From contig NADL03000040.1 in assembly GCA_002205965.3 (NCBI GenBank), forward strand, positions 540,475 to 604,474: a stretch of 64,000 bases of DNA. The letters are read 5' to 3'. The position numbers and the translations under genes were made by a program. The notes beneath the pieces were generated by a model. It was not told the origin of the DNA, did not search any database, and worked only from the letters and a program-made list of their open reading frames with translations. This DNA is from Kappaphycus alvarezii. Its lineage: Eukaryota; Rhodophyta; Florideophyceae; Gigartinales; Solieriaceae. Shown piece by piece: positions 16,598-56,821 of this stretch; the stretch's first letter is position 1; each line of letters starts with the position of its first letter.

Positions 16598-16611
16598 GGT
16601 TATGGGCCCAG
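16598..16611 (+). promoter_or_regulatory. Primer binding site of element D
   Basis: GGTTATGGGCCCAGTCC, the initiator tRNA-Met half type; the longest match of all copies here to Drosophila copia's site. It fixes the end of LTR-D1. Confidence 0.85.
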
Positions 16612-17039
16612 TCCAACGCTGTCCCTATCTCTGAATTCCGTTAGTCGCCCTGTGTTTTTGCATTGTTTCACTTTGTCTATTTCAGTCTCTTGATTATGTA
16701 TACTCGTTTTGGTAAGCTATTTGAATAATTCCATTTCTTTGCACATCGAAGTGATTCTCTTTGCACTTTTTGGTTGGTCTACAGACTCATAGTCCCCTAA
16801 GCTGTTACTGAAGATCACTTCAACTTTTGTGCTTGCTTTTGCTGGGTTGTGCTAGACTCTTAATTATCCCTGGTGCCCCGAGTGCCCAGGTCTGCGACAG
16901 TTAGGACTTTGCAATCTGTGGGGAGGACAGTTGTGGAATCGATCGAAGTACTCGAGCCAGAAGGACCGCCGCCGAGGACGCTCGCGCTTTCCTAGTCTAG
17001 GGAGGGTATAGGATCCCTCGTAAGTCTGTACCTCTGGAT

Positions 17040-17360
17040 AAGCAAATAAAGAAAGTTCAACGCCTCTCGGCAAAGAAAGATAAAGTCCTTGCCGATCGAG
17101 TTGCCAAGAAGGTACTAAAGGCTAAACGAAGAGTTCCGCTGAGGAACAAGAGATACTGTAAGCTCTGTGATATTAGCGGCAATAGCGCACTGACATTCTA
17201 CGATCACATCAAGTCTAAGGGTCATATTACTAGAGAGAAAAACAACAAAAAGACCCCTAGGTGTACTGCTTGTGATAGAGTGTTCGATTTGCACGAGGTT
17301 CTCAAGCGTCACGAAAACGGGAAAGAACAATTGAAAGTAGTTCTTCCTCAAAGAATTTGA
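17040..17360 (+). other. Zinc-finger ORF of element D (unit 1)
   Basis: Same ORF as 28,348-28,776 in unit 2, where it is described. Ends at the stop at 17,358-17,360. Basic region then YCKLC...H...H and CTACDRVFDLHEVLKRH. Only the right part is in one open frame here. Confidence 0.65.
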
Positions 17361-17564: not shown

Positions 17565-20500
17565 TGGCATCAGTAGAACGGGTGTCCGCTGCAGGATCCG
17601 AAAATAGAAAAGCTCACGGTGTTGATATATATATGTTGTGGTCCGCTCAGTGGCACAAGAGAGCCAGCGCATGTGGCTCAGTGGTTAACTTTTTTTCAAC
17701 AGGTTATGGGCCCAGTTGACATTGCCGCTGTGGTCGCGGGTTCGAACCCCGCTGGGTGCACTGAGTTGGATATTTGTTATGAGCGTTACTGTAATGCTCT
17801 GTGTAAGCCCTGAACCCCTCAACAAGCACATTGTGGTAGTGCCCCTGAGCGAGGGGGGGTGTTGATATATATATGTTGTGGTCCGCTCAGTGGCACAAGA
17901 GAGCCGGCGCATGTGGCTAGGTGGTTAACGTTTTTTCAACACACGGATACCAATTTCTACGTGTGGAAACAGAAGATTCAGCTCCTGTTGGCCTTCGCCA
18001 TGTGGAACAGTACATTACTGATAATACCGTTCCTGAAGATGACCAATCTTCCACTTACAAGGCATGGAAGCAAGGGCTTCGAAAGGCCCGAGCCATCATC
18101 GGCCTGTCCCTGTCGGATAATCATCTGGATCATGTGAGAGATGCTGTCATAGCTAAAGAAATTGGGACGCTATGTTGGAAGTTTTTGAGCGCCACACATT
18201 ACTAAATAAGCTGGAGGCCCGGAGAGACTTCTACACGGTCACCATGCTAGACAATGAGAAAGTGTTGCCGTGCATAGGACGTGTGCGACATCTAGCAGCT
18301 TGCTGAAAGCCAATGGGAGTCATCATTGATGACAAGGAAATGGCTAAGGCAGTTCTCAAATGGTCTTCCGCAGAGGTTTCAAAATCTCATTGTAGCGCTT
18401 GACGCTCTTGGATCCGAAGATAACACGTTCGGAGTAGAATATGTAAAAAGTCGCCTGCTCCAAGAGGAGCAACGTGCATCGATGAAGCTTACTAGAAGGC
18501 AGAATCCGCCAAGTTCTGCTCTTATTGGGCACATCCCTGAGGCAAGGCGTGTTTCGACTTTGACATGCACCAACTGTGGTCACAATGGACACTCCGCTGC
18601 CCGCTGCTGGGGAAAGGACATCAACGGAAGGCGACCCGCCACCTGACCGGTTCCTACGTAGAGTCACAGAAGCCTACTGCGATGATTGCTCAAGAGAAAG
18701 AAGATCTGGAAATTAATGAAGTCGAGTACATATGTCTGATGAACAAGGTAGATAACTCTGGTATCAACATAACGTCAAACACTTGGCTTATCGACTCTGG
18801 ATGCTCCGCGCACATGACATTTGACAAGAGACTGTTCTCCGACTACAGGGAGGTCTCAAACAGCCGCGTAGAAATGGGAACAAAAGCGTGTGCAGTAGTA
18901 GCTGGAGTCGGGACCTCATTACGCTTGTAGTGAACGGAGTTCAAAAGTCATGCAAGCTCACCAATGTGCTGCACGTTCCAAGCTTTGCTTTTTCCCTAAT
19001 TTCTGTACGTAAGATGGTCGATAATGGATTTGACGTTGAGTTCGTTCGTGACAAGTGCACTGTGAAGAGGAGTGACTGCATCGTGGCTACTGCCACAAGT
19101 CGAGGAGAGCTGTATGTGCTTGACACATGTAACGAGGTTCATTCGGCGCACAAAGCCTCTTTGAAGACATGGCATGAAAGATTGGCCCACGTTCACACTC
19201 AAGGAATATTGTCCATGGCTCGTAAGAACGTGGTAAGTGGACTTCATATCTCCTCTTCAGATATAACAAGAGACGCTAGCTCATCTTCTGACTGTGAATC
19301 TGTGACATGTGATGCGTGTGTGTTAGGAAAAGCAACTCGTGCTGTGATTCCTAAACAGCGCTCTGGAGGCAGGGCCAAACATTTGCTAGACTTGGTCCAT
19401 TCGGACGTCTGCGGCCCACTCCAAGTACAGTCAGTAGGTGGTGCTAGATACTTTGTCACTTTTATCGATGACCACTCAAACTGGAGTGTTGTCTATCCGA
19501 TGAAGAGTAAAGATGAAACGTTCCATTTTTATCAGAAGTTTGCCCAATATGCCTTCACACACACTGGTCAACGCGTGAAAGTGCTTCGATCTGATCGTGG
19601 TGGAGAGTATCTTTCTTCAGAGTTCCAATCCTTTCTATCGTCACAAGGAACTGTTCATCAAACGACCGCTGCATACACACCTGAACAGAATGGTGTGGCA
19701 GAACGGCTCAATCGTACCCTGATTGATCTCGTCAGGTCTATGCTGTCCCATATGAAGGTTCCGAAAGCTTTTTGGGCTGAAGCTCTGATAACGCAGTTTA
19801 CGTTCGCAATCGTGTCACGACAAGAGCTTTGGTGGTCTGTTACTCCATTTCACCTATGATGAAGAAAAAACCCGATGTATCTCACTCTACGTGTGTTTGA
19901 TGTCAATGCGGTACAAGGTGCCTAGTAATGAGGTGCGTAAACTTGGCGACCGCGCAACAACGGGAATGTTTGTTGGTTATCCGTCGGGAACTAAGGCCTA
20001 CAAAATTTGGGATGACAACCTATATCGCATTGTTATTTCAGGGATATGCAGTTCGATGAGTCGAGACCAAGGGCTTGCTCTACGATGAGCATTCGTCGAG
20101 GATAATGACGTGGATTTGACCCAGAAGAGGCGACCAATACTAATGAAATTGAATCGGAACATCTAGTGGTGGTAATGAACATGGCATTGAGACATCAGCG
20201 GTGGAGGTTGAGAACTTTCAAAGTCAAGGTATTGAGCGGGACTCAACTAATGAAATTTGGAACCAGAAGAAGTGAGTGGTGAGCAAGAAGGTGGTCCCGG
20301 TGATGTGGAACCTCGCCGCTCCACTCGTTCACGACGCCCACCCCAACAGTGGTGGACAGGCCTGGTGGGGATCAGCTTAGTCACACCTTCCTGTGGCAAA
20401 TCAATATACCGAACTCCTTTAAAGAGGGATGGGTGGACCACAACCAAAGTTTTGGCAGAAGCGATTGATGAAGAGCTAGAATCCCAACGCAAAAACAAAA

Positions 20501-21329: not shown

Positions 21330-21652
21330 TGTTGAAATGGGCTATATGTTCACTCAGTGCACCACTTGACATGCCAGCGCATGTGGCTTAGTGGTCGATG
21401 TGTTTTTCCTACATGGTAGCATCGCGGGTTCGAGCCCCGCAAGTGGTTGCATTGGTGAAAATTTAATTTGTGTGTTTTCGGCATTGCTTACTGTCCTATA
21501 GGCGATAGGAATGAGGTGTAAGATGTCTGAGTCCTTACAGCACCCTGTGGTCCCCTGAGTGAGGGGAGTGTTGAAATGGGCTATGTGTTCACTCAGTGCA
21601 CCACTTGACATGCCAGCGCATGTAGCTTAGTAGTCGATGTGTTTTTCCTACA
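21330..21652 (+). mobile_element. TRIM2: 323-bp mini-LTR element with tRNA-like promoter (unit 1)
   Basis: Two 84-bp LTRs (21,330-21,413 and 21,569-21,652; TGTTGAAATG...TTCCTACA), non-coding inside, hairpin-purine tract CCCCTGAGTGAGGGG before the right LTR. Box A TGGCTTAGTGG (21,384-21,394) in the LTR; box B GGTTCGAGCCC (21,427-21,437) inside. A tRNA-like fold: stem CAGTGCACCACTT (21,355-21,367) with 21,441-21,454; hairpin ACATGC-cagc-GCATGT; arm ATGTG-TTTTTCC-TACAT (21,398-21,414) with a 7-nt loop reading UUU; T-arm GCGGG-TTCGAGC-CCCGC. After the LTR, TGGTAGCATC could be a primer site for a tRNA 3' end. Left flank CATCT; no CATCT directly right of it. Confidence 0.8.
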
Positions 21653-24393: not shown

Positions 24394-24977
24394 GGTTATG
24401 GGCCCAGTTTTACGAACTGCCAAATTACTCTAATTTCTGAGCTTCTGACCCCTTGAGAAGCCTTTTTCGCACTCCAGAAATCCCAATCATTTCTCTAGGA
24501 GGAGGTAGAGCGAGCAGAGAGAGCCCGTTCAGGCGTTATCGCTCGGAAGTTGTTGGGGACACTTCGCCGAAAAGTGGAATAGGTCGCTGTCTTTATTCGC
24601 TGGATTTAGCTTGCTGCACCGTTTTATCCAACTTTTATCGTTTGTTTTGTGGCCTGATTGCCGACTGTCGTCTCTACATTACCTACCCTCCGTTTGCCTT
24701 GTGGCCCGACATCGCCTCTCATATATTCACTACAAACATTTTGCTCGGTGCGTGTAGTCGCTCCATTTTCCTGTTGCATTCAATTTCGTCTCTGTGTTTC
24801 AAACACAGCTTTTCTCACGGCCAGAATCTGTTTGCAACAGTAAGTGACCTCTGTCCTACTTTATTACGCCGACATACACACATCTCCTCCATCCTGAGCT
24901 AACACTTCAAATTCTCAGTGGTTTTCTGTCGGTCTGTCTTCAAATAAGGAATTGAAATCTCCCTCAACGATCCTGTC

Positions 24978-25764
24978 GTGCAGAGTATCCGTTTTCCGCC
25001 GCCCTCTCCTCTAAATCATCGACAACCTCAAAAAGCTGAACCGTTTCGTCGTAAGTGTAGCTTTATAGAGAACTCTGCGATCGAATCCGACAGTGAAGGA
25101 GGCGACATAACTTCAACTGCAACTACTCCCGAGGTTGCCGAAGTCCGCCCTTCTCCCCAAAGAAGAAAGAAGAATTTCTTCAACACATTCTCGCTCTAGG
25201 CAAGAAGGAAGCGGTGGCTGGGCACTCATCAAAGAAGCATTCTCGTCTTCTATCAAAGCGCCTCGTCTCCCAACCCTGTCTTCGTCCAAAGCCCTTGCCT
25301 GTCTCCTTTACCCGTATCGAAAAGTCAAAGGGAAAGAAAGCAGCCACACCAGCCGAAGTGATATCTCTAGAATCTCCATCTCCAGTAACTCAACAGCCGT
25401 CTCAGTGCCTCAAGATCCGACTCCAGTTGCCGTTCACTCTCCATTGTCGCCTGCTCCTCCTTCCGGTTGTAACCCTCCTCCAATTCCAAGGGTCCCAACT
25501 CCGCTTTCCGTCGAACCGTTCTCTCTGGCCTCACTTGCTCAAGGACCAGATTGTTCTGTCATCAAGCCGAAATCTTCTCGACTTATGTGCGATATTTGCG
25601 AGCTAAAAGGCTCAGGTCCAAAGCAGTTAGAGCAGCGCAGAGGTGGTAAGAAATGTCGCAATCGAGTCAAACGGAATTCCGCCATCACTCCCTGCGCTTG
25701 CTGCAACCGTCTTTTCCAATCAAGACACGATCGCAACAGGCACGTTACTCGTAAGAATAGGTAA
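24978..25764 (+). CDS. Leader zinc-finger region B (unit 2)
   Basis: Extra coding text between LTR-B2 and gag. An open frame 24,978-25,199 carries an acidic patch (ESDSEGGD) and RPSPQRRKKNFF; another, 25,135-25,764, ends in the zinc-finger part: CDICELKGSG, a basic linker, and CACCNRLFQSRHDRNRHVTRK (C-x2-C-x12-H). The last finger is alignable with the last finger of the D ORF (CTACDRVFDLHEVLKRH), so both are one family. A fossil region with breaks. Copia elements normally have no ORF here. The function is unknown; a nucleic-acid-binding role is inferred from the fingers. Confidence 0.55.
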
Positions 25765-28982: not shown

Positions 28983-31900
28983 ATGGCATCAGTAGAACGG
29001 GTGTCCGCTGCAGGATCCGAAAATAGAAAAGCTCACGGTGTTGATATATATATGTTGTGGTCCGCTCAGTGGCACAAGAGAGCCAGCGCATGTGGCTCAG
29101 TGGTTAACTTTTTTTCAACAGGTTATGGCCCAGTTGACATTGCCGCTGTGGTCGCGGGTTCGAACCCCGCTGGGTGCACTGAGTTGGATATTTGTTATGA
29201 GCGTTACTGTAATGCTCTGTGTAAGCCCTGAACCCCTCAACAAGCACATTGTGGTAGTGCCCCTGAGCGAGGGGGGTGTTGATATATATATGTTGTGGTC
29301 CGCTCAGTGGCACAAGAGAGCCAGCGCATGTGGCTAGGTGGTTAACGTTTTTTCAACACACGGATACCAATTTCTACGTGTGGAAACAGAAGATTCAGCT
29401 CCTGTTGGCCTTCGCCATGTGGAACAGTACATTACTGATAATACCGTTCCTGAAGATGACCAATCTTCCACTTACAAGGCATGGAAGCAAGGGCTTCGAA
29501 AGGCCCGAGCCATCATCGGCCTGTCCCTGTCGGATGATCATCTGGATCATGTGAGAGATGCTGTCATAGCTAAAGAAATTGGGACGCTATGTTGGAAGTT
29601 TTTGAGCGCCACACATTACTAAATAAGCTGGAGGCCCGGAGAGACTTCTACACGGTCACCATGCTAGACAATGAGAAACTGTTGCCGTGCATAGGACGTG
29701 TGCGACATCTAGCAGCTTGCTGAAAGCCAATGGGAGTCATCATTGATGACAAGGAAATGGCTAAAGCAGTTCTCAATGGTCTTCCGCAGAGGTTTCAAAA
29801 TCTCATTGTAGCGGTTGAGGCTCTTGGATCCGAAGATAACACGTTCGGAGTAGAATATGTGAAAAGTCGCTTGCTTCAAGAGGAGCAACGTGCATTGATG
29901 AAGCTCTGTAGAAGGAAGAATCCGCCAATTTCTGCCCTTATTGGGCAGATCCCTGAGGCAAGGCTTGTTTCGACGTTGACATGCACCAACTGTGGTCACA
30001 ATGGACACTCCGCTGCTGGTTGCTGGGGGAAACAAATCAACGGAAGGCGACCGCCGCCTCCTCACTTTTTCTCTCGTAGAGAGTCACAGAAGCCTACTGC
30101 GATGATTGCTCAAGAGAAAGAAGATCTCGAAATTAATGAAGTCGAGTACATATGTCTGATGAACAAGGTAGATAACTTTCGTATCAACAAACGTCAAAAC
30201 TTGGCTTATCGACTCTGGATGCTCCGCGTACACATGACATTTGACAAGAGACTTTCGCCGAGTACAGGGAGGTCTCAAACAGCCGCGTAGAAATGGGAAC
30301 AAAAGTGTGCAGTAGTAGCTGGAGTCGGGACCGTCCTCATTACGCTTGTAGTGAACGGAGTTCAAAAGAATGCAAGCTCACCAATGTGCTGCACGTTCCA
30401 AGCTTTGCTTTTTCCCTAATTCTGTACGTAAGATGGTCGATAATGGATTTGACGTTGAGTTCGTTCGTGACAAGTGCACTGTGAAGAGAGTGACTGCATG
30501 TGGCTACTGCCACAAGTCGAGGAGAGCTTATGTGCTTGAACATGTAACAGGTTCATTCGGCGCACAAAGCCTCTTAAACATGGCATGAAAGATTGCCCAC
30601 TCACACTCAAGAATATTGTCCATGGCTCGTAAGAACGTGTAAGTGGACTTCATCTCTCCTCTTCAGATATAAAAGAGAGCTAGCTCATCTTCTGACTGTG
30701 AATGTTGACATGTGATGCGTGTGTGTTAGGAAAAGCAACTCGTGCTGTGATTCCTAAACAGCGCTCTGGAGGCAGGGCCAAATATTTGCTAGACTTTCCA
30801 TTCGGACGTCTGCGGCCCACTCCAAGTACAGTCGTAGGTGGTGCTAGATACTTTGTCACTTTTATCGATGACCACTCAAACTGGAGTGTTGTTTGATGAA
30901 GAGTAAAATGAAACGTTCCATTTTTATCAAAGTTTGCCAATATGCCTCACACACACTGGTCAACGAGTGAAAGCGCTTCGATCTGATGTGGTGGAGAGTA
31001 TCTTTCTTCAGAGTTCCAATCCTTTCTATCGTCACAAAACTGTTCATCAAACGACCGCTGCATACACACCTGAACAGAATGGTGTGGCAGAACGGCTCAA
31101 TCGTACCCTGATTGATCTCGTCAGGTCTATGCTGTCCCATATGAAGGTTCCGAAAGCTTTTTGGGCTGAAGCTCTGATAACGCAGTTTACGTTCGCAATC
31201 GTGTCACGACAAGAGCTTTGGGTGGTCTCGTTACTCCATTTCACCTATGATGAAGAAAAAGCCCGATGTATCTCACCTACGTGTGTTTGGATGTCAATGC
31301 GGTACAAGGTGCCTGGTAATGAGGTGCGTAAACTTGCGACCGCGCAACAACGGGAATGTTTGTTGGTATCCGGGAACTAAGGCCTACAAAATTTGGGATG
31401 ACAATACATCGCATTGTTATTTCCAGGGATGTGCAGTTCGATGAGTCGAGACCAGGGCTTGCTCTACGATGAACATTCTCGATGATAATGACGTGGACGT
31501 TGACCCAGAGAGGCGACCAATACTAATGAAATTGATCTGAAACATCTATGGTGTAATGAACATGGCATTGAACAGGGTCAGCGGGAGGTTGAGAACTTTC
31601 AAAGTCAAGGTATTGAGCCCGACTCAACTAATGAGATTTGAACCAGAAGAAGTGAGTGGTGAGCAAGAGGTGGTCCCGGTGATGTGGAACCTCGCCGCTC
31701 CACTCGTTCACGACGCCCACCCCGACAGTGGTGGACAGGCCTGGTGGGAACCAGCTTACTCACACCTTCCTGTGGCGACATCAACATACCGAACTCCTTT
31801 AAAGAGGCGATGGGTGGACCACAACCAAGTTTTGGCAGAAAGCGATTGATGAAGAGCTAGAGTCCCAACGCAAAAACAAAACCTGGGCACTAGTGCCACG

Positions 31901-32703: not shown

Positions 32704-33025
32704 TGTTGAAATGGGCTATATGTTCACTCAGTGCACCACTTGACATGCCAGCGCATGTGGCTTAGTGGTCGATGTGTTTTTCCTACATGGTAGCATCGCG
32801 GGTTCGAGCCCCGCAAGTGGTTGCATTGTGAAAATTTAATTTGTGTGTTTTCGGCATTGCTTACTGTCCTATAGGCGATAGGAATGAGGTGTAAGATGTC
32901 TGAGTCCTTACAGCACCCTGTGGTCCCCTGAGTGAGGGGAGTGTTGAAATGGGCTATGTGTTCACTCAGTGCACCACTTGACATGCCAGCGCATGTAGCT
33001 TAGTAGTCGATGTGTTTTTCCTACA
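32704..33025 (+). mobile_element. TRIM2 (unit 2)
   Basis: 322 bp with 84-bp LTRs (32,704-32,787; 32,942-33,025), preceded by CATCT (32,699-32,703). Same tRNA-like parts as unit 1. Confidence 0.8.
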
Positions 33026-40357: not shown

Positions 40358-43300
40358 ATGGCATCAGTAGAACGGGTGTCCGCTGCAGGATCCGAAAATA
40401 GAAAAGCTCACGGTGTTGATATATATATGTTGTGGTCCGCTCAGTGGCACAAGAGAGCCAGCGCATGTGGCTCAGTGGTTAACTTTTTTTCAACGGTTAT
40501 GGGCCCAGTTGACATTGCCGCTGTGGTCGCGGGTTCGAACCCCGCTGGGTGCACTGAGTTGGATATTTGTTATGAGCGTTACTGTAATGCTCTGTGTAAG
40601 CCCTGAACCCCTCAACAAGCACATTGTGGTAGTGCCCCTGAGCGAGGGGGGGTGTTGATATATATATGTTGTGGTCCGCTCAGTGGCACAAGAGAGCCAG
40701 CGCATGTGGCTAGGTGGTTAACGTTTTTTCAACACACGGATACCAATTTCTACGTGTGGAAACAGAAGATTCAGCTCCTGTTGGCCTTCGCCATGTGGAA
40801 CAGTACATTACTGATAATACCGTTCCTGAAGATGACAATCTTCCACTTACAAGGCATGGAAGCAAGGGCTTCGAAAGGCCCGGGCCATCATCGGCCTGTC
40901 CTGTCGATGATCACTGGATCATGTGAGAGATGCTGTCATAGCCAAAGAAATTGGGACGCCATCTTGGAAGTTTTTGAGCGCCACACATTACTAAATAAGC
41001 TGGCGGCCCGGAGAGACTTCTACACGGTCACCATGCTAGACAATGAGAAAGTTGCCGTACATAGGACGTGTGCGACACTAGCAGCTCGCTTAAAGTCAAT
41101 GGGAGTCATCATTGATGACAAGGAAATGGCTATGGCAGTTCTCAATGGTCTTCCGCAGAGGTTTCAAAATCTCATTGTAGCGCTTGACGCTCTTGGATCC
41201 GAAGATAACACGTTCGGAGTAGAATATGTAAAAAGTCGCCTGCTCCAAGAGGAGCAACGTGCATCGATGAAGCTCTAGAAGGAGAATCCGCCAAGTTCTG
41301 CTCTTATTGGGCAGATCCCTGAGGCAAGGCTGTTTCGACTTTGACATGCACCAACTGTGGTCACAATGGACACTCCGCTGCCCGCTGCTGGGGAAACATC
41401 AACGGAAGGCGACCACCGCCTCCTCACTTTCCTACGTAGAGAGTCACAGAAGCCTACTGCGATGATTGCTCAAGAGAAGGATCTCGGAAATTAATGAAGT
41501 CGAGTACATATGTCTGATGAACAAGGTAGATAACTTGTATCAACATAACGTCAAAACTTGGCTTATCGACTCTGGATGCTCCGCACATGACATTTGACAA
41601 GAGACTGTTCTCCGACTACAGGGAGGTCTCAAACAGCCGCGTAGAAATGGGAACAAAAGTGTGCAGTAGTAGCTGGAGTCGGGACCGTCCTCATTACGCT
41701 TGTAGTGAACGGAGTTCAAAAGATGCAAGCTCACCAATGTGCTGCACGTTCCAAGCTTTGCTTTTTCCCTAATTTGTACGTAAGATGGTCGATAATGGAT
41801 TTGACGTTGAGAGTTTGTTCGTGACAAGTGCACTGTGAAGAGAGTGACTGCATCGTGGCTACTGCCACAAGTCGAGGAGAGCTGTATGTGCTTGACACAT
41901 GTAACGAGGTTCATTCGGCGCACAAAGCCTCTTTGAAACATGGCATGAAAGATTGCCCATTCACACTCAAGGAATATTGTCCATGGCTCGTAAGAACGTG
42001 GTAAGTGGACTTCATATCTCCTCTTCAGATATAAAAGAGAGCTAGCTCATCTTCTGACTGTGAATAGTGAATGTGATGCGTGTCTGTTAGGAAAAAACAA
42101 CTCGTGCTTGATTCCAAACAGCGCTCTGGAGGCAGGGCAAAATATTGCTAGACTTGTCCATTCGGACGTTGCGGCCCACTCCAAGTACAGTCAGTAGGTG
42201 GTGCTAGATACTTTGTCATTTTATCTATGACCACTCAAACTGGAGTGTTGTCTATCCGATGAAGAGTAAAATGAAACGTTCCATTTTTATCAAAATTTGC
42301 CGAGTATGCCTCACACACACTGGTCAACGCGTGAAAGCGCTTCGATCTGATTGGTGGAGAGTATCTTTCTTCAGAGTTCCAATCCTTTCTATCTTCACAA
42401 AGAAATGTTCATCAAAAGACCGCTGCAGACACACCTGAACAGAAGGTGTGACAGAACGGCTCAATCGTACCCTGATTGATATCGCAGGTCTGTGCTGTCC
42501 ATATGAAGGTTCCGAAAGCTTTTTGGGCTGAAGCTCTCGATAACGCATTTACGTTCGAAATCGTGTCACGACAAGACTTTGGTGGTCTTGTTACTCCATT
42601 TCACCTATGATGAAGAAAAACCCGATGTATCTCACTCTACGTGTGTTTGCATGTCAATGCTGGTACAAGGTGCCTGTAATGAGGTGCTAAACTTGGCGAC
42701 CGCGCAACAACGGGAATGTTTGTTGGTTATCCGTCGGGAACTAAGGCCTACAAAATTTGGGATGACAACCTATATCGCATTGTTATTTCAGGGATGCAGT
42801 TCGATGAGTCGAGACCAGGGGCTTGCTCTACGATGAGCATTCGTCTGATGATAATGACGTGGATTTGACCCAGAAGAGGCGACCAATACTAATGAAATTG
42901 AATCCGGAACATCTAGTGGTGAAATGAACATGGCATTGAAATGGCCAGCGGTGGAGGTTGAGAACTTTCAAAGTCAAGGTATTGAGCGACTCAACTAATG
43001 AGAATTTGGAACCAGAAGAAGTGAGTGGTGAGCAAGAAGGTGGTCCCGGTGATGTGGAACCTCGCCGCTCCACTCGTTCACGACGCCCACCCCGACAGTG
43101 GTGGACAGGCCTGGTGGGAACAGCTTAGTCACACCTTCCTGTGGCAAAACATATACCGAACTCCTTTAAAGAGGCGATGGGTGGACCACAACCAAAGTTT
43201 GGCAGAAAGCGATTGATAAGAGCTAGAGTCCCAACGCAAAAACAAAACCTGGGCACTAGTGCCACGAACGGAAGACCAATATTCTCACTTCTCGCTGGGT

Positions 43301-43585: not shown

Positions 43586-43713
43586 CGAGTAACTTTATGG
43601 CATCAGTAGAACGGGTGTCCGCTGCAGGATCCGACTATACTGCTAGCTAAGTGCTAACCGGGTGGTCCACGTCGGCCACGTGCAGCGACGCTTCAACAAG
43701 ATGGACTTGAGAA
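43586..43713 (-). mobile_element. Short, different LINE end at the unit 3 insertion site
   Basis: At the point where units 1 and 2 carry the 460-bp LINE, unit 3 has 128 bp: about 46 nt identical to the start of gag-D (compare 17,555-17,601), then about 55 nt of LINE 3' end (CTATACTGCTAGCTAAGTGC, like the 9.48-kb copy), then the left arm of a hairpin. ATTTTG/TTTTG flanks remain. Confidence 0.65.
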
Positions 43714-43746
43714 GTTTTGCAAACTTCTCAAGTCCATCTTGTTGAA
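43692..43746. repeat. Perfect 26-bp inverted repeat
   Basis: Arms 43,692-43,717 and 43,721-43,746 are exact reverse complements with a 3-nt spacer. The right arm is D pol target sequence, the CATCT site and the first 7 bases of TRIM2; the left arm is an inverted copy of the same. Found only in unit 3. Confidence 0.9.
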
Positions 43747-44063
43747 ATGGGCTATATGTTCACTCAGTGCACCACTTGACATGCCAGCGCATGTGGCTTA
43801 GTGGTCGATGTGTTTTCCTACATGGTAGCATCGCGGGTTCGAGCCCCGCAAGTGGTTGCACTGGTGAAAATTTAATTTGTGTGTTTTCGGCATTGCTTAC
43901 TGTCCTATAGGCGATAGGAATGAGGTGTAAGATGTCTGAGTCCTTACAGCACCCTGTGGTCCCCTGAGTGAGGGGGAGTGTTGAAATGGGCTATGTGTTC
44001 ACTCAGTGCACCACTTGAACATGCCAGCGCATGTAGCTTAGTGGTCGATGTGTTTTTCCTACA
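43740..44063 (+). mobile_element. TRIM2 (unit 3)
   Basis: 324 bp, LTRs 43,740-43,822 and 43,979-44,063, preceded by CATCT (43,735-43,739). Followed by 17 bp (GGGGTTATAGCCC within) and then the left LTR of element C. Confidence 0.8.
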
Positions 44064-44080
44064 TGGGGTTATAGCCCTTC

Positions 44081-45307
44081 TGATAAAATAAACAGGGGAT
44101 GGTGAGGGATGAGAAGAGAGAATGAAAGGAATGTAGGGAAGGAGTGCAGGTGCAGAAAGGAAACAGAAAGGAGATAGAACGGCAGGGGTGAGGTTTGATG
44201 TTGAAATAAAAGGCAAGTCCGTACCTCTTCTTTACTTGGATGAGCTATTAGACTACAACTATATACTGTTTGCCGGTACTCACTTCGGCTTTGTGAAAGC
44301 AAAATGAAAGTAGCAAAATCTACATTTGCAGTACTATCTTTGTTGATCCTATAGCCTACCCAAGCCAAGATGCCTCAGAATCCCTCATTTGCATGCGCGG
44401 GAAATTCATAATTACCAATATTCAAAACGTGAGTAACATTACGTTCATGCTAGCCATGCACGTTCTGTTACGTAAACATATAATAAACAGTCAACCCGTG
44501 AATTATGCCTTACGTACCCCGCCTATGCAACTGTAATCTCTCGCCCTGTAACAAAACCCAAAGGCGGGAACTCAATATATCAAGAGTAGAAAACAATTTT
44601 CGGCGGGCTTGTCTCACTTTGCTACGTAACAGTACGTAAATCTCATGCAGGCCGTTCAACGTGAATTAAGCCTTACGTGCCATACGTGCAATACTGTAGA
44701 AGCAACGTGGCTGCATCAACATACTTTGGCTGCATACTTGTGCAAGAGTGATTTGTACGCAGCCAGTATAATGAGTATAGTGTAAGCCGTATGCAGCCAG
44801 TCCAGGCAACTATAGGATAAATATAGAAACCACTGTTTACTTGTACACGTACGACACCTATAATAATGTACACGTACGACAGAGAGGAGACAGTACACGT
44901 ATGCCACTAGGAGACAGTACACGTATGCCACACTGTGTACAGTATTTTGAGCCTAGAAGAGAGACAAACCATCAACCAACCATAACATGCCAAGTGTCAG
45001 AATGCTCCACAATGATCAGCTCAGATATCGCCACTTGTAGCGATGTGAGTGGTATGGAGGCGTATCTAGCAGCCAATCAGAGGGCAGAATACCAAGTGGT
45101 TTGAAAAATGGCAAAATGCGCCGTGATTTTGAGTTGCCCGAAAATGGGCTTTCGTCCCAGGCAACTTTCGTTTGGCCCATTTTACACGTGTCATAGGTGT
45201 GCACACAGAAGAAGGGTGCAACTCGCATTTTCATGCTACAAGTGTACACGTGTCCAGGTGGCAACTAAAAACCATGGGATCGCATGCATTCTATCACTTT
45301 TTCAACA
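44081..45307 (-). repeat. LTR-C, left LTR of the outer C element
   Basis: 1,227 bp; TGTTGAAAAAG at its 5' end on the minus strand. Four copies of GTACACGTA at 25-bp steps near 44,840-44,925. Confidence 0.9.
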
Positions 45308-45341
45308 CTCCCCTCGATCACATTGTTTTTTTTAGATTAAT

Positions 45342-46361
45342 TTATGCTCCCCTTCTACCCATTACAATCATTCTAACAAGTTTTGTCATCTGAACTCGCC
45401 CTAGTGGTTTCGTCAAGGCGTCAGCAACATTTTCACTTGTTGGCACGTACACCAAATCCACCTCTTTACGCACAACTGCATCTCTTACAAAGTGGTATGC
45501 AATATCAATGTGCTTGTTGCGTCTGTTGGTGCTTTCGTTTCGAGCGAGCTCCATAGCCCCCTGGTTATCGCTGTATATTGTAGTAGCATGATCAATTCCA
45601 AGTGCTTTCACGCCCAGCGATGTCCAGGTTTCAAGGATATCCCGAACGACACGTCTCAGCCATATTGCCTCTTTACTTGCTGCAGTTAACGAAATGTATT
45701 CGGCCTCACATGACGAAGCTGCGACAACCGTTTGCTTTCGCGAGCACCAACTTACCCCACTTCCAGCCATACGAAACACGAAACCACTCGTCGATTTGCG
45801 ATCGGACACATCTCCGGCCCAATCCGAGTCACAATATGCAGACAAGCCCAGCTCAGCATTCCCTTGGAACACAAGACCTAAATCTTTGGTCCCAGCAAGA
45901 TACCTTAACACTCTTTTTACTGCTAACCAATGCTTCTCTCTTGGTTCCTCGCAAAAACGTGCAAGTTTACCCACCGCATAAGATATATCAGGTCGTGTTC
46001 CAACAGACAAATACATGAGAGCTCCAATAGCGCTCCTGTATGGAGCATCTGTCCGAGCATCATTACCCGTATATCCCGACCGATCCACGTTCAACTCGTC
46101 AGTGTTAATATTCATAGGAGTTGGAACAGGTCTACAATTCTGCATTCCAAATCGCTCTAGAACGCTGTCTACAAACCGTGGCTGGGATAAACACAAGGAG
46201 CGTTCGGATCTCCGGCGAGAAATTTCAAGGCCAACAACCATTTTCGCCTCTCCCAAATCTTTCATTTCAAAACGGCGGTTCAGCTCCCCCTTCATCCATG
46301 CAATAGCCTCCACGTTGTTTCCTGCAAGCAGCAAGTCATCAACATACAGGAGGATAATCAT
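45342..46361 (-). other. Outer C element: RT end and RNase H
   Basis: A 339-aa open stretch of pol. Starts in the RT palm (LLYVDDLLLAGN), then KRFEMKDLG-like text, RNase H with YCDSDWAGD, DRKSTSGFVF, SWCSRKQTVVAASSCEAEY, YSDNQGAMELARN and RRNKHIDIAYHFVRDAV, ending in GENVADALTKPL-like text. Typical Ty1/copia order and length for this part. Confidence 0.9.
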
Positions 46362-46399
46362 GATTGAGTCGGAGGTTGGGTCAAATTTTACATACAGGG

Positions 46400-49294
46400 A
46401 TCATTAGTGCTACTTTTGAACTTGAGCCCATCAACAAGAAAATCATCGATTTTCTGGTGCCACCGCCTATGTGCCTGTTTCAAACCATACAAGGCCTTCA
46501 GAAACTTGCAGACATGATTCGGTTTCGAGGTGTCTTTAAACCCATCGGCTGCTCCATGTACACGTCCTCTTCCACATCACCGTTCAGAAATGCCGTCTTA
46601 CGTCCATTTGATGCAGCTCCAGATCCTGATGCGCAACAAGTGCCAAAAGCACCCGAATTGACGTGAGCTTCACGACAGGGGCGTATTCTCATTATAATCT
46701 ACCCCTTTGACCTGTTGGAATCCACGAGCGACAAGACGCGCCTTCGATTTTCGAGAAAAGCCACCGTTGGAGTCCTGGGCATCTTTTATTGCAAACACCC
46801 ATTTTGGAGTCAGAATATTTGAGGCCTCCAAACGTGGGACTAACTTCCATGTTTTGTTCCGAATGATCGAGTCTCGCTCGGACTCGATGGCAGACTTCCA
46901 AAAGTCTGCGTCCGGGCCTGTCGCCGCGTGTCGGTACGAGATGTTGACAACATTTGTGACGAGAGCCGTGTCATTAGGTGTCAAGGATATATTGGACCTC
47001 CACCAAGCATTTGGGGCCCTTCGAATCCTTTCAGATCTCCGTGGAGCTACTTACATCAGGGGCTCAGGGATTTCGTTATCTATACCAACGTTTTCGGCGA
47101 CCGTCGGGTCGTTTCCAGCATTAGCCTGGTCATCGCTTTGTCCCTGAATATCTTGTCGCGAAGCTGTAGCCATCTCGGCTGTGTCCAGTGTAGGAAGCGG
47201 ACTTGATCATCCTGTTCAACGCCAACCTACAAGATCCTCATCAGAGCTAATTGCAAGACGCTCATCTGATTCGTTTTCATTTATTTCGGAGTGCAGGTTT
47301 CGCTCTCACTGAATCTGACATCTCTGGAAACAACTACCTTGTGTAATTCAGGATCCCACAGTTTGTAAGCTTTGCTGGCTTCCGCATATCCAAGCATAAT
47401 TGCTTCCCGTGCTCGGTAGTCGAGCTTACTCAACTGGCTTGCCGGGATGGTGTACCAACATTTACTTCCGAACGTACGAAGGTGCGACAAATTGGGCTTG
47501 CGCCCGTACCAGATATGATGCGGGGTCGTGTGGCTTGGAAGTGCGCGAGTTGTAACTCTGTTTCGAATGTATACAGCAGTCGCCAGAGCTTCGGCCCAGA
47601 ACTGTTTTGGCAGACTCTTTGCATGTAGCATTGACCGAACCAGATCCATCAGAGTTCGGTTCAGCCGCTCAGAAACACCGTTCTGTTCAGGTGACTCCAC
47701 TGCACTAAGCTCATGTTTTGTTCCGCACGCAGCAAGATAGTCCTTGAATGCAGTGGACATATATTCTCCACCTCGATCTGAACGAAAGATACCAATGCGG
47801 CGCCCAGTATGGGCTTCGCTACGAGCTTGGAACAGTTTATATTTATCAAAACCTCTGATTTTCGCTGCATCATGTAGACGGTAACCCAGGAGGAGTGATC
47901 GTCCGTGAAAGTCACAAAGTAGCGTGCTCCTCCAACTGAAGAAACCTCCATGGTCCACAAACGTCACTGTGAACAAGATCTAATATTGCTTCAGCTCTAC
48001 CACTCGTACGTTTCTTCGGCACTGCAGAACGATGAGCCTTTCCATGAACGCATGATGTGCATACTTCAGATGCACTCGAGCCACTGATCTGCACGCCGTC
48101 TACAACATTGTTCCGTACCATGGATGCAATGCCCTCTTTGCTTACATGAGCCATTCTCTCGTGCCATGTTGAGAGTGTGGTGACTTTCGCAGAGTACAAG
48201 GTATCATTCGGTATCTTCTGGACTATTTCGATGGCATAAAGAAGGCTATCGCACAGCATTTTTCCAGTTGCCACAACTTTCCCATTCTTTGTCATCTGCA
48301 TAGATTTGTTCTCAAATACAGTTTTGATCCCTTCTATGTCCGCTTTGCCTACAGAAATGAGAGAGTATTCGAAAGTAGGAACGTGGACAACATCTCGCAG
48401 AATGCACCGCTTTCGACAACCATCCACTAGTAGGGTCAGCTCCACGTCACCTCGCCCAGCAATCCTAGCCCGGGCTTTAGTTCCCATTTCGACTGAAGCT
48501 GCAGAGAATTCGGTATAACTCGTGAAAACACTCCTATCGTATGTCATATGGGAAGTACATGCCGAATCGCGTACCAGGAGGAAGTTCCGGCCGAAATTCC
48601 GGCCTGTTTAATTCGTGACATTAGGCAAACGATTTCACTCTCATCTATGCTGTCCTACTATCAGCTGGAGGATGGGAATAAGTCGAATCAAATACATTTG
48701 CACCTACGAACGCCTGCTGATCCTCTCGGACGATTCTTCTCGTTCCGATGACTATTAGATCCTCTGCCACTACGAGACCCAGGTGGACGATAGCCCCTCG
48801 GCGCTTCCGGGCGCTTACCGTTCACATCTTTGCCCCAGCATCTGTCAGCCGTATGACCGGAATGACCGCAGTTCGTACAGTGCAGCTGTCTAGCATTACC
48901 TCCGTAGTCATTCGGACGGGCACTGGATATGAGCGCCGCATTGGATTTTGTACCTTTTGACTCTCTCATTTGAGCACGCTCCTCTTCCTGCAACAACCGG
49001 CTCTTCACAAATTCCAAAGTAAACACCCTGTCCTCATTTCCGAGCGCATCCAAGGCAACGATGAGATTGTCGAACCGAGGTGGCAATCCATTAAGCACAG
49101 CCATGGCTATCTCTTTGTCATCAATAGTCACATCCATGGATTTCAGGGTCGCTGCTAGCTGCGTCACACGGTTAACATACTGCAAAACTCTCTCGTTACC
49201 GTCCATAGCCGCGGTGTAAAAGCGTCGAGCCGCAAGCTTATTGAGGAGTGTGTGCCTTTCAAACGTGTTGAGAATAATAGTCCACATCTCCTTG
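46400..49294 (-). other. Outer C element: gag end, protease, integrase, RT start
   Basis: Right to left: gag helices with LKSMDVTIDDKEIAMAVLNG, knuckle, protease region up to SHMTYDRS (near 48,530), HHCC zinc site TWHERMAHVSKEG...CTSCVHGKAH, DDE core (VHSDVCGP, RSDRGGEYMS, PEQNGVSERLNRTL), and RT start AIKDAQDSNGGFSRKSKARLVARGFQQ. A fossil with a few breaks. Confidence 0.85.
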
Positions 49295-50527
49295 TGTTGA
49301 AAAAGTGATAGAATGCATGCGATTCCATGGTTTTTGGTTGCCACCTGGACACGTGTACACCAGTAGCAGGAAAATTCGAGCTGCACCCTTCTTCTGTGAG
49401 CACACCTATGACACGTGTAAAATGGGCCAAACCGAAAGTTGCCTGGGACGAAAGCCCATTTTCGGGCATCTTAAAAACACGGCGCATTTTGCCATTTTTC
49501 AAACCACTTGGTATTCCGCCCTCTGATTGGCTGCTAGATACGCCTCCATATCACTCATATCGCTACAAGTGGATGTATCTGAGCTGATCATTGTGGAGCA
49601 TTCTGACACTTTGCATGTTATGCTTGGTTGATGGTTTGTTTCTCTTCTAGGCTCAAAATACTGTACACAGTGTGGCATACGTGTACTGTATCCTAGGTGG
49701 CATACGTGTACTGTCTCCTCTCTGTCGTACGTGTACATTATTATAGGTGCCGTACGTGTACAAGTAAACAGTGGTTTCTATATTTATCCTATAGTTGCCT
49801 GGACTGGCTGCATACGGCTTACACTATACTCATTATACTGGCTGCGTACAAATCACTCTTGCACAAGTATGCAGCCAAAGTATGTTGATGCAGCCACGTT
49901 GCTTCTACAGTATTGCACGTATGGCACGTAAGGCTTAATTCACGTTGAATGGCCTGCATGAGATTTACGTACTGTTACGTAGCAAAGTGAGACAAGCCCG
50001 CCGAAAATTGTTTTCTACTCTCATGATATATTGAGTTCCCGCCTTTGTTTTTGTTACAGGGCGAGAGATTACAGTTGCATAGGCGGGGTACGTAAGGCAT
50101 AATTCACGGGTTGACTGGTTTATTATATGTTTACGTAACAGAACGTGCATGGCTAGCATGAACGTAATGTTACTCACGTTTTGAATGTTGGTAATTATGA
50201 ATTTCCCGCGCATGCAACTGAGGGATTCTGAGGTATTTTGGCATGGCTAAGCTATAGGATCAACAAAGATAGTACTGCAAATGTAGATTTTGCTACTTTC
50301 ATTTTTGCTTTCACAAAGCCGAAGTGAGTACCGGCAAACAGTATATAGTTGTAGTCTAATAGCTCATCAAAGTAAAGAAGAGGTACGGACTTGCCTTTGA
50401 TTTCATTACTAACCTCACCCTTGCCGTTCTATCTCCTTTCTGTTTCCTTTCTCCACCTGCACTCCTTCCCTACATTCCTTTTTTATTCTCTCTCCTCATC
50501 CCTCACCATCCCCTGTTTTTTCTCTCA
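49295..50527 (+). repeat. LTR-C, 5' LTR of the inner C element
   Basis: 1,233 bp, TGTTGAAAAAGTG to TCTCTCA. Four TACGTGTAC words at 49,678, 49,703, 49,728 and 49,753, exactly 25 bp apart. Many TTACGTAA/ACGTAAG words further on. Confidence 0.9.
49678..49761 (+). promoter_or_regulatory. 25-bp-spaced TACGTGTAC array in LTR-C
   Basis: Four identical 9-mers with an ACGT core at a strict 25-bp step. Likely a bZIP/bHLH-type binding array in the LTR promoter. Recurs in all C LTRs; the solo LTRs of units 1 and 2 have three copies. Confidence 0.6.
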
Positions 50528-50541
50528 GGTTATGGGCCCAG
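50528..50541 (+). promoter_or_regulatory. Primer binding site of the inner C element
   Basis: GGTTATGGGCCCAG directly after the LTR; initiator tRNA-Met half type. Confidence 0.85.
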
Positions 50542-50700
50542 CCCACGCTACCGCTCTTTCCGCTTGATCCGTCCCTCAACCGTTGACGTTGACGTTGAGG
50601 TAGTTGCTTTCTCTGTGTTGTGGTGCTGTTGGTGTTGTCACTTGTTGCTTTTTGGTTATTGTTGTTGGGTTCTTGTCGTTGTTGGGACCCGTTTGGTGAT

Positions 50701-50941
50701 TGTCAAGCACTCTGTGTGTGGATCCTGAGTGTTTTTGTGGTTACCATTGTGTGTTGTTGGAATCTGTTGTTTGTGAGAACCAATTCTAAGGCTGTCAAGC
50801 ACTCTGTGTGTGGATCCTGAGTGTTTTTGTGGTTATTTATGTGTGTTAGACTAGAGCATTCATTGCTTGTGCTCTACTGCTGTTGAGACGTATTTTGTGT
50901 TGTCAAGCACTCTGTGTGAGGATCCTGAGTGCTTTGTGGTT
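50701..50941 (+). repeat. Three 42-bp direct repeats in the C leader
   Basis: TGTCAAGCACTCTGTGTG with GGATCCTGAGTG and a T-rich end occurs at 50,701, 50,793 and 50,901. The outer element has them in the matching place (57,830-58,065, minus strand). Leader repeats may form structure for packaging; no proof here. Confidence 0.8.
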
Positions 50942-51939
50942 TCATTGCTCTGGTCATTGTTTGTTGGATTGGTTTTCTGTCTCTTTTGTGGTGGTCGTGG
51001 TCATTCGAAATTCATCAGCTCGAGTTTATTGTTTGGAAGTATTGGCTCTGTTGTTTGAGGAGTAATCTAGGCCTGGTTGTTGATACCCCTTGCACTCTTG
51101 GAAAGCCTTCACGGCAACGGAAAAGAAAAAGACAGAGTGCCGGGGGTCCGCCCAAGTTTGTCCGAGTCTCTTGCCGAATCGTGGTCCTGGCAATCGGTTT
51201 TGTGATCCTCTCACCGGCTGTACTCTTTTGAGAACAGTGCCTTTGTGTAACGCGAGTTGGACGGACCGTACCATACAAACCCACGCGGTTGATAACGCGA
51301 GTTATCAGAAGTCGTAAGACTGAACCCGATTCCCGGTGGGAATCACGGTGTACCAGCCCAGTCGGTCCGTTGCAGTGGCCCTTTTGCGCGCCGGCGGGAC
51401 AGAGACGCTCCTCGCTTGAAAGATCGATACGTACGCGAAACACCATCGCCCGTGGTCGGAGAGGGAACGACTGTCTTCTAATTCCTTACTCTGGTGGCAT
51501 ACCGGGTACTAGTGTTCTGCACTTGTATTTTGGTACCTGCTGGCTATACTTCTGTTGAGGTATAGATACGTGCTGTGCACGGAAGGACGAGGCTCATTGG
51601 TGACCTTGAGTGCTTTCACACGAGTACGACGGAGGTCAAGCAACACAGTACGGAAGGAAACGCGCCTGAGTTAGTACGGAAAGACTGTGATTGTGGTAAG
51701 TCGCCCTTTGCTGCGGGGACCTTTCGGGGTAGTGGCTGAAAATTCCTGGCCGTCTACAGGTAAAAGTTGCTGTGCTTACTCGTGGCACACGGATCGCGCT
51801 CAAAGTTGAAAGACCAGCACTGGCCGATATACAGGGGTAGCGCCCTAAGGCACAAATAAAGAGGTGGTAAGAGGTAGAGGAGGAAAACTAAAGAGGTAAA
51901 GAGTTGGAAATTAAACACCACGTGTCTTTGAGGAAACGC

Positions 51940-52022
51940 TGCAAACTTCTTATAGGGAAAGGCTTGCCGTGACAGGCGACTATCGGTTGCCGGCTTGGGA
52001 TACCTGAACAGAGGACTTTGCA
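51940..52022 (+). ncRNA. Structured leader RNA before gag-C (inner element)
   Basis: Outer stem TGCAAACTTCT with AGAGGACTTTGCA (2-nt bulge), conserved GGCTTGCC, hairpin GGCGAC-TATCG-GTTGCC (51,975-51,991), then GGCTTGGGAT...GAACAGA. Stem bases differ from lineage D while loop and flanks are kept. Confidence 0.6.
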
Positions 52023-52067
52023 TACTCACTGCATACGTGGTAATAGAGGTTTCAGATACAAAGGGTC

Positions 52068-55000
52068 TTGGATAAAAACGTAGTCAGGGACGATCGCGGA
52101 GGCGGAGTTCGAATTGAAAAGCTCACCAACAATAACTTCCATGTTTGGAAGCAGAAGGTGCAGCTTCTTGTCGCCCTGCGGGAGCTTGATGACTACATTG
52201 CGGATGACCCGCCTGAAGAATCCGATGACGGGGCTTTCAAATCATGGGCTCGGGCCGACCGCAAAGCACGGGCGCTCATCGGGTTGTCCCTTTATGATGA
52301 GCACCTTGAGCATGTGCGCGCTGCGGAAACTGCAAAAGAGATGTGGACTATTATTCTCAACACGTTTGAAAGGCACACTCCTCAATAAGCTTGCGGCTCG
52401 AAGCCACTTTAACACCGCGGCTATGGACGGTAACGAGAGATTTTTGCAGTATGTTAACCGTGTGACGCAGCTAGCAGCGACCCTGAAATCCATGGATGTG
52501 ACTATTGATGACAAAGAGATAGCCATGGCTGTGCTTAATGGATTGCCACCTCGGTTCGACAATCTCATTGTCGCCTTGGATGCGCTCGGAAATGAGGACA
52601 GGGTGTTTATTTTGGAATTTGTGAAGAGGTGGTTGTTGCAGGAAGAGGAGCGTGCTCAAATGAGAGAGTCAAAAGGTACAAAATCCAATGCGGCGCTCAT
52701 ATCCAGTGCCCGTCCGAATGACTACAGAGGTAATGCTAGACAGCTGCACTGTACGAACTGCGGTCATTCCGGTGATACGGCTGGCAGATGCTGGGGCAAA
52801 GATGTGAACGGTAAGCGCCCGGAAGCGCCGAGGGGCTATCGTCCACCTGGGTGTCGTAGTGGCACAGGATCTAATAGTCATTGGAACGAGAAGAATCGTC
52901 CGAGAGGAGATCTGCAGGCGGTCGTAGGTGCAAATGTATTCCATTCGACTTATTCCCATCCTCCAGCTGATAGTAAGGACAGCATAGATGAGAGTGAAAT
53001 CGTTTGCCTAATGTCACGAATTAAACAGGCCGGAATTTCGGCCGGAACTTCCTCCTGGTACGCGAATTCGGCATGTACTTCCCATATGACATACGATAGG
53101 AGTGTTTTCACGAGTTATACCGAATTCTCTGCAGCTTCAGTCGAAATATGAACTAAAGCCCGGGCTAGGATTGCTGGGCGAGGTGACGTGGAGCTGACCC
53201 TACTAGTGGATAGTTGTCGAAAGCAGTGCATTCTGCGAGATGTTGTCCACGTTCCTACTTTCGAATACTCTCTCATTTCTGTAGGCAAAGCGGATATAGA
53301 AGGGATCAAAACTGTATTTGAGAACAAATCTATGCAGATGACAAAGAATGGGAAAGTTGTGGCAACTGGAAAAATGCTGTGCGATAGCATTCTTTATGCC
53401 ATCGCAACAGTCTAGAAGATACCGAATGATACCTAGTACTCTGCGAAAGTCACCACACTCTCAACATGGCACGAGAGAATGGCTCATGTAAGCAAAGAGG
53501 GCATTGCATCCATGGTACGGAACAATGTTGTAGACGGCGTGCAGATCAGTGGCTCGAGTGCATCTGAAGTATGCACATCATGCGTTCATGGAAAGGCTCA
53601 TCGTTCTGCAGTGCCGAAGAAACGTACGTAGAGCTGAAGCAATATTAGATCTTGTTCACAGTGACGTTTGTGGACCTATGGAGATTTCTTCAGTTGGAGG
53701 AGCACGCAACTTTGTGACTTTCACGGACGATCACTCCTCCTGGGTTACCGTCTACATGATGCAGCGAAAGTCAGAGGTTTTTGATAAATATAAACTGTTC
53801 CAAGCTCCTAGCGAAGCCCATACTGGGCGCCGCATTGGTATCTTTCCTTCAGATCGAGGTGGAGAGTATATGTCCACTGCATTCAAGGTCTATCTTGCTG
53901 CGTGCGGAACAAAACATGAGCTTAGTGCAGTGGAGTCACCTGAACAGAACGGTGTTTCTGAGCGGCTGAACCGAACTCTGATGGATCTGGTGCGGTCAAT
54001 GCTACATGCAAGGAGTCTGCAAAACAGTTCTGGGCGAAGCTCTGGCGACTGCTGTATACATTCGAAACAGAGTTACAACTCGCGCACTTCCAAGCCACAC
54101 GACCTCGCATCATATCTGGTACGAGCGCAAGCCCAATTTGTCGCACCTTCGTACGTATGTTGATGACTTGCTGCTTGCAGGAAACAACGTGGAGGCTATT
54201 GCATGGATGAAGGGGGAGCTGAACCGCCGTTTTGAAATGAAAGATTTGGGAGAGGCGAAAATGGTTGTTGGCCTTGAAATTTCTCGCCGGAGATCGAACG
54301 CTCCTTGTGTTTATCCCAGCCACTGTTTGTAGACAGCGTTCTAGAGCGATTTGGAATGCAGAATTGTAGACCTGTTCCAACTCTGTGAATATTAATACTG
54401 ACGAGTTAAATGTGGATCGGTCGGGATATACGGGTAATGATGTTCGGACAGATGCTCCATACAGGAGCGCTATTGGAGCTCTCATGTATTTGTCTGTTGG
54501 AACACGACCTGATATATCTTATGCGGTGGGTAAACTTGCACGTTTTTGCGAGGAACCAAGAGAGAAGCATCGGTTAGCAGTAAAAAGAGTGTTAAGGTAT
54601 CTTGCTGGGACCAAAGATTTAGGTCTTGTGTTCCAAGGGAATGCTGAGCTGGGCTTTTCTGCATACTGTGACTCGGATTGGGCCGGAGATGTGTCCGATC
54701 GCAAATCGACGAGTGGTTTCGTGTTTCGTATGGCTGGAAGTGGGGTAAGTTGGTGCTCGCGAAAGCAAACGGTTGTCGCAGCTTCGTCATGTGAGGCAGA
54801 ATACATTTCGTTAACTGCAGCAAGTAAAGAGGCAATATGGCTGAGACGTGTCGGGATATCCTTGAAACCTGGACATCGCTGGGCGTGAAAGCACTTGGAA
54901 TTGATCATGCTACTACAATATACAGCGATAACCAGGGGGCTATGGGGCTTGCTCGAAACGAAAGCACCAACAGACGCAACAAGCAAATTGATATTGCATA

Positions 55001-55166
55001 CCACTTTGTAAGAGATGCAGTTGTGCGTAAAGAGGTAGATTTGATGTACGTGCCAACAGGTGAAAATGTTGCTGACGCCTTGTCGAAACCACTAGGACGG
55101 GTTCAGATGACAAAACTTGTTAGAATGATTGTAATGGGTAGGAAGGGGGAGCATAAATTAATCTAA
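52068..55166 (+). other. Inner C element gag-pol
   Basis: gag opens with MDKNVVRDDRGGGVRIEKL then NNFHVWKQKVQLLVALRELDDY; later LKSMDVTIDDKEIAMAVLNG and knuckle CTNCGHSGDTAGRCW; integrase SDRGGEYMS and PEQNGVSERLNRTL; RT YVDDLLLAGN; RNase H YCDSDWAGD...DRKSTSGFVF. Fossil with several breaks. Confidence 0.85.
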
Positions 55167-55194
55167 AAGAAAAACCAATGTGATCGAGGGGGAG

Positions 55195-56694: not shown

Positions 56695-56739
56695 GACCCT
56701 TTGTATCTGAAACCTCTATTACCACGTATGCAGTGAGTA

Positions 56740-56821
56740 TGCAAAGTCCTCTTTCAGGTATCCCAAGCCGGCAACCGATAGTCGCCTGTCACGGCAAGCC
56801 TTTCCCTATTAGAAGTTTGCA
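56740..56821 (-). ncRNA. Structured leader RNA before gag-C (outer element)
   Basis: Minus-strand copy of the fold at 51,940-52,022. Confidence 0.55.

Follow-up and report, generated by a model that had tools for sequence, protein, structure and literature searches.

The window analysed here is a stretch of 64,000 nt from contig NADL03000040.1 (positions 540,475 to 604,474) of the Kappaphycus alvarezii assembly GCA_002205965.3, and it holds two related families of terminal-repeat retrotransposons in miniature (TRIMs), TRIM1 and TRIM2, in which the two boxes of a tRNA-type promoter layout lie on either side of the edge of the 5' long terminal repeat (LTR). Elements and their parts are on the plus strand of the window unless otherwise noted, strand not applying to target site duplications (TSDs). 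The first copy of TRIM1 occupies 17620-17941 in re-read coordinates (322 bp) and lies inside a copia gag gene, between the left TSD CACGG at 17615-17619 and the right TSD CACGG at 17942-17946. Its 5' LTR (17620-17701, 82 bp, TGTTGA...TCAACA) contains a run that is TATA-like by its letters (17626-17634), with a presumed promoter function about 30 bp upstream of the putative transcription start, the left arm of a closing stem, CTCAGTGgCAC (17646-17656), box A TGGCTCAGTGG (17674-17684) and a run of seven T (17690-17696) that separates box A from box B. The primer-binding site GGTTATGGGCCCAG, matching the anticodon arm of initiator tRNA-Met, begins directly at the LTR edge (17702-17715) and is followed in the internal part by a T-arm including box B (17735-17752, with GGTTCGA at 17739), the right arm of the closing stem, GTGCACTGAG (17756-17765), and the CCCCTGAGNGAGGGG hairpin leading into the polypurine tract (17842-17859). 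The 3' LTR (17860-17941, 82 bp) has no box B and holds a run of six T at 17931-17936. The two LTRs of this copy differ at 4 of 82 bp, and three of these four differences recur in both other copies. The original prediction for this locus had described an element with 82-bp LTRs, an initiator-Met primer site, a purine tract and a CACGG TSD, all of which were recovered in place; together with a size below about 1 kb they make TRIM1 a non-coding miniature LTR element, the longer open frames across the TRIM copies being those that continue into the interrupted gag gene.

The joined flanks of TRIM1 align through the junction with a gag paralogue at 52112-52415 (64.6% over 311 columns), and a shorter junction-spanning match is found at 56650-56544; it should be noted that both matches have just 12 nt on the left side of the junction. 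The two sites also agree in reading frame (KIEKLTDTNFYVWKQKIQ for TRIM1 and RIEKLTNNNFHVWKQKVQ for the paralogue), and Pfam reports Retrotran_gag_2 above its cut-off both in the frame over the site of the third TRIM1 copy (40607-41278) and in a frame of the copia element CopA (52084-53151), which is described below. As the flanks match, the frames agree and Pfam names gag, TRIM1 is, judged by its surroundings, an element that entered a copia gag gene in the manner of LTR elements. The other two copies, at 29039-29358 and 40414-40734, are segmental duplicates with the same flanks and TSD inside a repeated 11.4-kb segment, hence we count the three as one insertion. This copia-rich segment forms about three tandem repeats and a further partial copy (12559-43685 and 58232-64000), and its repetition has multiplied both TRIM insertions.

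The second, diverged family, missed by the original prediction, is found at 43740-44063, with LTRs at 43740-43822 and 43979-44063, box A at 43794-43804 and the T-arm with box B at 43832-43849. Since the immediate flanks are common to this copy and those at 21330-21652 and 32704-33025, the three TRIM2 copies likewise count as one insertion. The TRIM2 LTRs are 83-85 bp long, start with TGTTGAA and end with CTACA; the 5' LTR contains GCCAGCGCATGTGGCTTAGTGGT, with one difference in 23 nt from TRIM1, and the T-arm CGCGGGTTCGAGCCCCGC has one difference in 18. An LTR pair is present in all six copies, which measure 320-322 bp in TRIM1 and 322-324 bp in TRIM2, and CCCCTGAGNGAGGGG precedes the 3' LTR in TRIM2 as well. 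This sequence, a hairpin by its letters, covers part of the purine tract in both families (17842-17856, 43961-43975 and four other copies), and a seventh match with two mismatches lies elsewhere in the window at 8784. At 43692-43746 an inverted repeat, perfect over 26 nt and with 3 nt between its arms, reaches just into the start of the TRIM2 LTR; it is absent at the 21330 copy.

Box A lies within the LTR and GGTTC occurs exactly once, internally, in six of six copies (three of three in each family), so that every element has one complete box pair, at its left end. The predicted split of the boxes across the LTR edge, and the presence of both boxes at the left end alone, thus hold for all three TRIM1 and all three TRIM2 copies. 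Each of the six 5' LTRs reads TGGCTYAGTGG, which with GGTTC agrees with the tRNA-like consensus of the Helenus elements (see below), TRGCY...YGG plus GGTTC. Pairs of box A and box B 25-100 bp apart number six in the 64 kb, all of them in the six TRIM copies, and in 100 dinucleotide-shuffled sequences there were 0.05 such pairs on average and 2 at most, 4 of the 100 having at least one. Scanned as single motifs, box A-like sites occur 12 times in the window, always in TRIM elements, and T-arm sites seven times, six in TRIM elements and one, with three mismatches, elsewhere. A chance origin of the boxes was rejected on these shuffles and scans.

The boxes are also the best conserved part between the families. 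In the 5' LTR and internal part, the first TRIM1 copy and the 43740 TRIM2 copy are identical at 141 of 207 ungapped columns, with 34 of 36 identical in the box A and box B stretches versus 107 of 171 outside them (Fisher p 5e-5, a value to be taken as a guide, as the box stretches were picked from the tRNA consensus and also anchor the alignment). The original prediction had allowed for a stray tRNA fragment confined to this array; because the diverged TRIM2 family carries the same split layout, with the boxes in six of six copies within the window, the layout is, on the evidence of the letters, not such a fragment. In tRNA genes box A and box B are spaced about 44 bp apart, start to start. 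The corresponding spacing is 42-43 bp in TRIM2 and 64-65 bp in TRIM1, and the family alignment places the extra TRIM1 spacing in an insert over the primer site.

The Rfam tRNA model matched the first TRIM1 copy across the LTR edge (17667-17760, 24.1 bits, E 0.0078), below its cut-off of 29 bits, and no Rfam family scored at or above its cut-off in the window. ARAGORN at normal settings detected no tRNA in the window, nor in the first TRIM1 copy and two TRIM2 copies taken separately (three of the six copies), and on this silence a functional tRNA gene was rejected. With lowered thresholds and no introns (-ps60), it called 17667-17761 as Thr, 43786-43857 as Cys and 21376-21448 as Lys on the plus strand; these weak calls were left uncounted, as their anticodons differ and five further calls fall elsewhere or on the other strand. 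When the stretch is read by eye with the spacing of a normal tRNA, neither family has a partner strand for the D-stem, and the letters of box A are retained in both, which would be expected of a promoter rather than of an RNA fold. Viral contigs held a single exact match to box A (L001), which lies in dense coding-like sequence, lacks GGTTC in the 150 bases that follow and was judged to be due to chance; other patterns had no match there, and a copia reverse transcriptase fragment gave two pattern matches, neither of them a relative. In bacterial genomes the box A/box B pattern had no match, and of the 12 pattern matches obtained with a copia integrase fragment none was a relative.

The TRIM1 primer site is contained letter for letter in an antisense oligonucleotide against the anticodon arm of initiator tRNA-Met, given in an excerpt of an HIV-1 study (PMC1797187), and it overlaps a zebrafish probe against the same tRNA (excerpt of PMC11417395). 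Exact matches to GTTATGGGCCCAG number 11 in the window, where 1.06 would be expected with up to two mismatches allowed. Of these 11, two belong to TRIM1 copies; among the nine others, two directly follow LTR ends of CopA (50529, and 58219 on the minus strand); the TRIM1 copy at 29039 has lost one base in its primer site. CopA (49293-56426) is a shortened copia element whose LTRs measure 1.24 kb. It has the primer site in common with TRIM1 and the junction between purine tract and LTR, GAGGGGGAG followed directly by TGTTGA, in common with TRIM2, two TRIM2 copies having one G fewer at this junction. In a minus-strand CopA relative (45342-47979) Pfam detects a reverse transcriptase and an integrase SH3-like domain above cut-off and an integrase core below it. 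By their look, the copia proteins of the window may be oomycete-like. A CopA-like copia is the likely helper of both TRIM families.

Two further observations concern these copia elements. Over 44080-59462, CopA copies stand in opposite orientations and are apparently broken or joined to each other. At 16599-17360 and 24395-25764, and in the repeats of these stretches, frames with zinc-finger motifs, which we take to be C2H2-like, lie no more than 1.5 kb downstream of copia-type primer sites. No polymerase frame was recognised by eye near them and Pfam gave no match for the frame 25111-25764; these stretches are possibly non-autonomous elements.

On balance we favour a reading in which TRIM1 and TRIM2 are non-coding mini LTR elements, copied in trans by a CopA-type copia, that would be transcribed from an internal promoter of their own, derived from a tRNA. 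The LTR pairs, the purine tract, the boxes and the second family are observed, and the TSD, the primer site and the gag insertion are observed for TRIM1 alone. In favour of the reading are the excess of box pairs over shuffles, the conservation of the boxes between the families, the TRIM1 match to the tRNA model and the precedents of Helenus and Cassandra. RNA polymerase III (Pol III) would start in the 5' LTR 10-20 bp upstream of box A, near 17655-17662, continue across box B and the rest of the internal part into the 3' LTR, and stop at the T-run by the LTR end (17931-17936). The resulting RNA would carry a terminal repeat (R) of about 40 nt, which reverse transcription requires. In TRIM1, initiator tRNA-Met would then prime minus-strand DNA at 17702, between the boxes. 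With the primer site between the boxes and the LTR ending where that site starts, box A comes to lie in both LTRs and box B in the internal part. As both boxes are downstream of the start and thus in the RNA, the promoter could be inherited without sitting inside the LTR. No complete promoter would then be left in the 3' LTR or in any solo LTR. A contiguous tRNA unit probably came first, and TRIM1 would have gained the copia-type primer site within it later. Further, with less assurance, we entertain the idea of a TRIM lineage primed inside its Pol III promoter, such that the LTR edge splits the promoter and complete elements alone could be transcribed, solo and 3' LTRs being silent, which would amount to an inherent one-way switch.

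Several points weigh against this proposal. A run of T lies between the boxes, seven in TRIM1 and four or five in TRIM2, and should end Pol III transcription early; since CopA also has a T-run near its LTR end, the run need not be a Pol III terminator and may be a general feature of LTR ends. The TATA-like run could serve RNA polymerase II (Pol II), or else could support Pol III. The 3' LTR of TRIM1 has box A changed to TGGCTAGGTGG at 17914-17924. The purine tract is present in TRIM2 and the anticodon primer site for initiator tRNA-Met is not, with no primer tRNA assigned to this family, nor was a clear TSD found (left CATCT versus right TGGGG), a mismatch that a later rearrangement may account for. 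The tRNA model, which matched TRIM1 below its cut-off, gave no match up to E 10 for the 43740 copy, the single TRIM2 copy tried. Even in TRIM1 the Rfam alignment forms a D-stem by skipping 22 nt, which weakens the argument from that stem. Finally, the independent insertions in the window number two.

Some of these points would also suit another explanation, namely that a TRIM caught a SINE-like sequence of tRNA origin (SINE, short interspersed nuclear element), of which the boxes are relics, and that Pol II transcribes the element from the TATA-like run at 17626-17634, with the boxes idle. The T-run between the boxes, and the one near the LTR end of the helper-like copia, are consistent with it as well. 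On the other hand, the boxes are the part best kept between two diverged families, and we regard idle relics as rather unlikely.

The stretch might instead work as RNA, its 5' leader closing into a tRNA-like shape in which the primer site is presented or the primer tRNA is held. Here the two families behave differently. The original prediction had counted the closing stem among the marks of the element; the stem is present, and in two TRIM2 copies it is strong (0 of 500 shuffles match it in each), whereas in the first TRIM1 copy 35 of 500 shuffles pair as well or better, which is near chance, and the TRIM1 stem was rejected as proof of a conserved RNA. Likewise, two TRIM2 copies fold into closed multi-arm structures with z -4.0 and -3.5 (equalled by none of 200 shuffles in either copy), while TRIM1 17645-17768 reaches just z -1.87 (9 of 200 as good), and the 46-nt piece 17655-17700 folds no better than shuffles (z -0.74). 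The position of the TRIM1 primer site within the closed part is in favour of a leader. Against it, the core letters of the stem are identical in TRIM1 and TRIM2, so that no compensatory change is seen and no covariation is claimed, and a start 10-20 bp upstream of box A would exclude most of the left arm from the 5' end of the RNA. A structural RNA would fit TRIM2 better than TRIM1, and as an explanation of the layout it seems improbable to us.

The antisense of a tRNA 3' end leads with TGG, the complement of CCA. In TRIM2, the stretch with box B might mainly serve to bind the 3' end of initiator tRNA-Met as primer (TGGTAGCA...), its box B likeness being partly a by-product because the T-loop reads almost alike on both strands. 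This idea draws on TGGTAGCA directly after CTACA in TRIM2 and on an antisense oligonucleotide to this tRNA that starts with TAGCA (excerpt of PMC1797187), but the agreement runs just 8 nt before a difference, TRIM1 has the same T-arm about 20 bp past a different primer site, and the near-tRNA spacing from box A is left unexplained, which makes this highly improbable.

SINEs move by target-primed reverse transcription and depend on long interspersed nuclear elements. Like tRNA-derived SINEs, the TRIMs described here are short and non-coding with tRNA-type boxes; unlike them, TRIM1 has LTRs, a primer site and a purine tract, features that SINEs lack (in part after the available text of PMC10886601), and it has a 5-bp TSD. 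Ordinary TRIM or SMART (small LTR retrotransposon) elements are similar in their two LTRs, primer site, purine tract, absence of coding sequence and dependence on a helper (same text), but carry no tRNA-type boxes. With Cassandra our elements have in common a TRIM body with a Pol III-type promoter layout, here read from the sequence. Cassandra, however, has a 5S promoter in each LTR and the primer site TGGTATCAGAGC (available text of PMC7215508 and PMC10853983), from which the anticodon-arm site of TRIM1 differs, and no Rfam family at cut-off in the window points to a 5S rRNA-derived LTR. Cassandra RNA starts in the 5' LTR and ends in the 3' LTR, with 18 bp repeated at both ends (as related in excerpts of PMC10886601).

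The original prediction knew of no tRNA-type counterpart of Cassandra, but Helenus (Kojima 2024, PMC10886601) is one. In the available text of that paper, Helenus elements are TRIMs (TRIMp3 group) with tRNA-derived sequence in their LTRs, from fungi, animals and Selaginella; most fungal families have anticodon-loop primer sites, predominantly for initiator tRNA-Met, with 5-bp TSDs and likely copia helpers. The terms oomycete, stramenopile and Phytophthora were not found in this text. Helenus is common in rust fungi. The present elements resemble Helenus as mini non-coding LTR elements with tRNA-type boxes A and B, TRIM1 also in its 5-bp TSD, likely copia helper and initiator-Met anticodon primer site. 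They differ in that Helenus has both boxes within the LTRs, whereas here box B lies outside the LTR in six of six copies, and TRIM1 has its primer site between box A and box B; the LTRs are also shorter, 82-85 bp versus 120 bp for one short Helenus LTR (Selaginella, excerpt of PMC10886601). A one-way promoter switch is not described for Cassandra or Helenus in the available parts of PMC10886601, PMC7215508 and PMC10853983. The papers listed by our literature search on tRNA-type TRIMs included none on them besides Kojima 2024, its coverage being without most subscription journals and Repbase, where the split form may be listed, and those listed by a search directed at oomycetes, with the same coverage, included none on such TRIMs. 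Thus tRNA-type TRIMs are already known, and the split tRNA-type promoter in two related families, with the TRIM1 primer site between the boxes, looks new.

A simple account of the split tRNA unit would be that the LTR edge is set by the primer site. In the 2024 Helenus screen, LTR sequences were set against those of tRNAs and SINEs (available text of PMC10886601), and screens of this design could miss or under-score split elements. If the proposal is true, these TRIMs would add to the few LTR elements for which Pol III transcription has been suggested, and a Pol III promoter need not be whole within the LTR, its boxes being in the RNA anyway.
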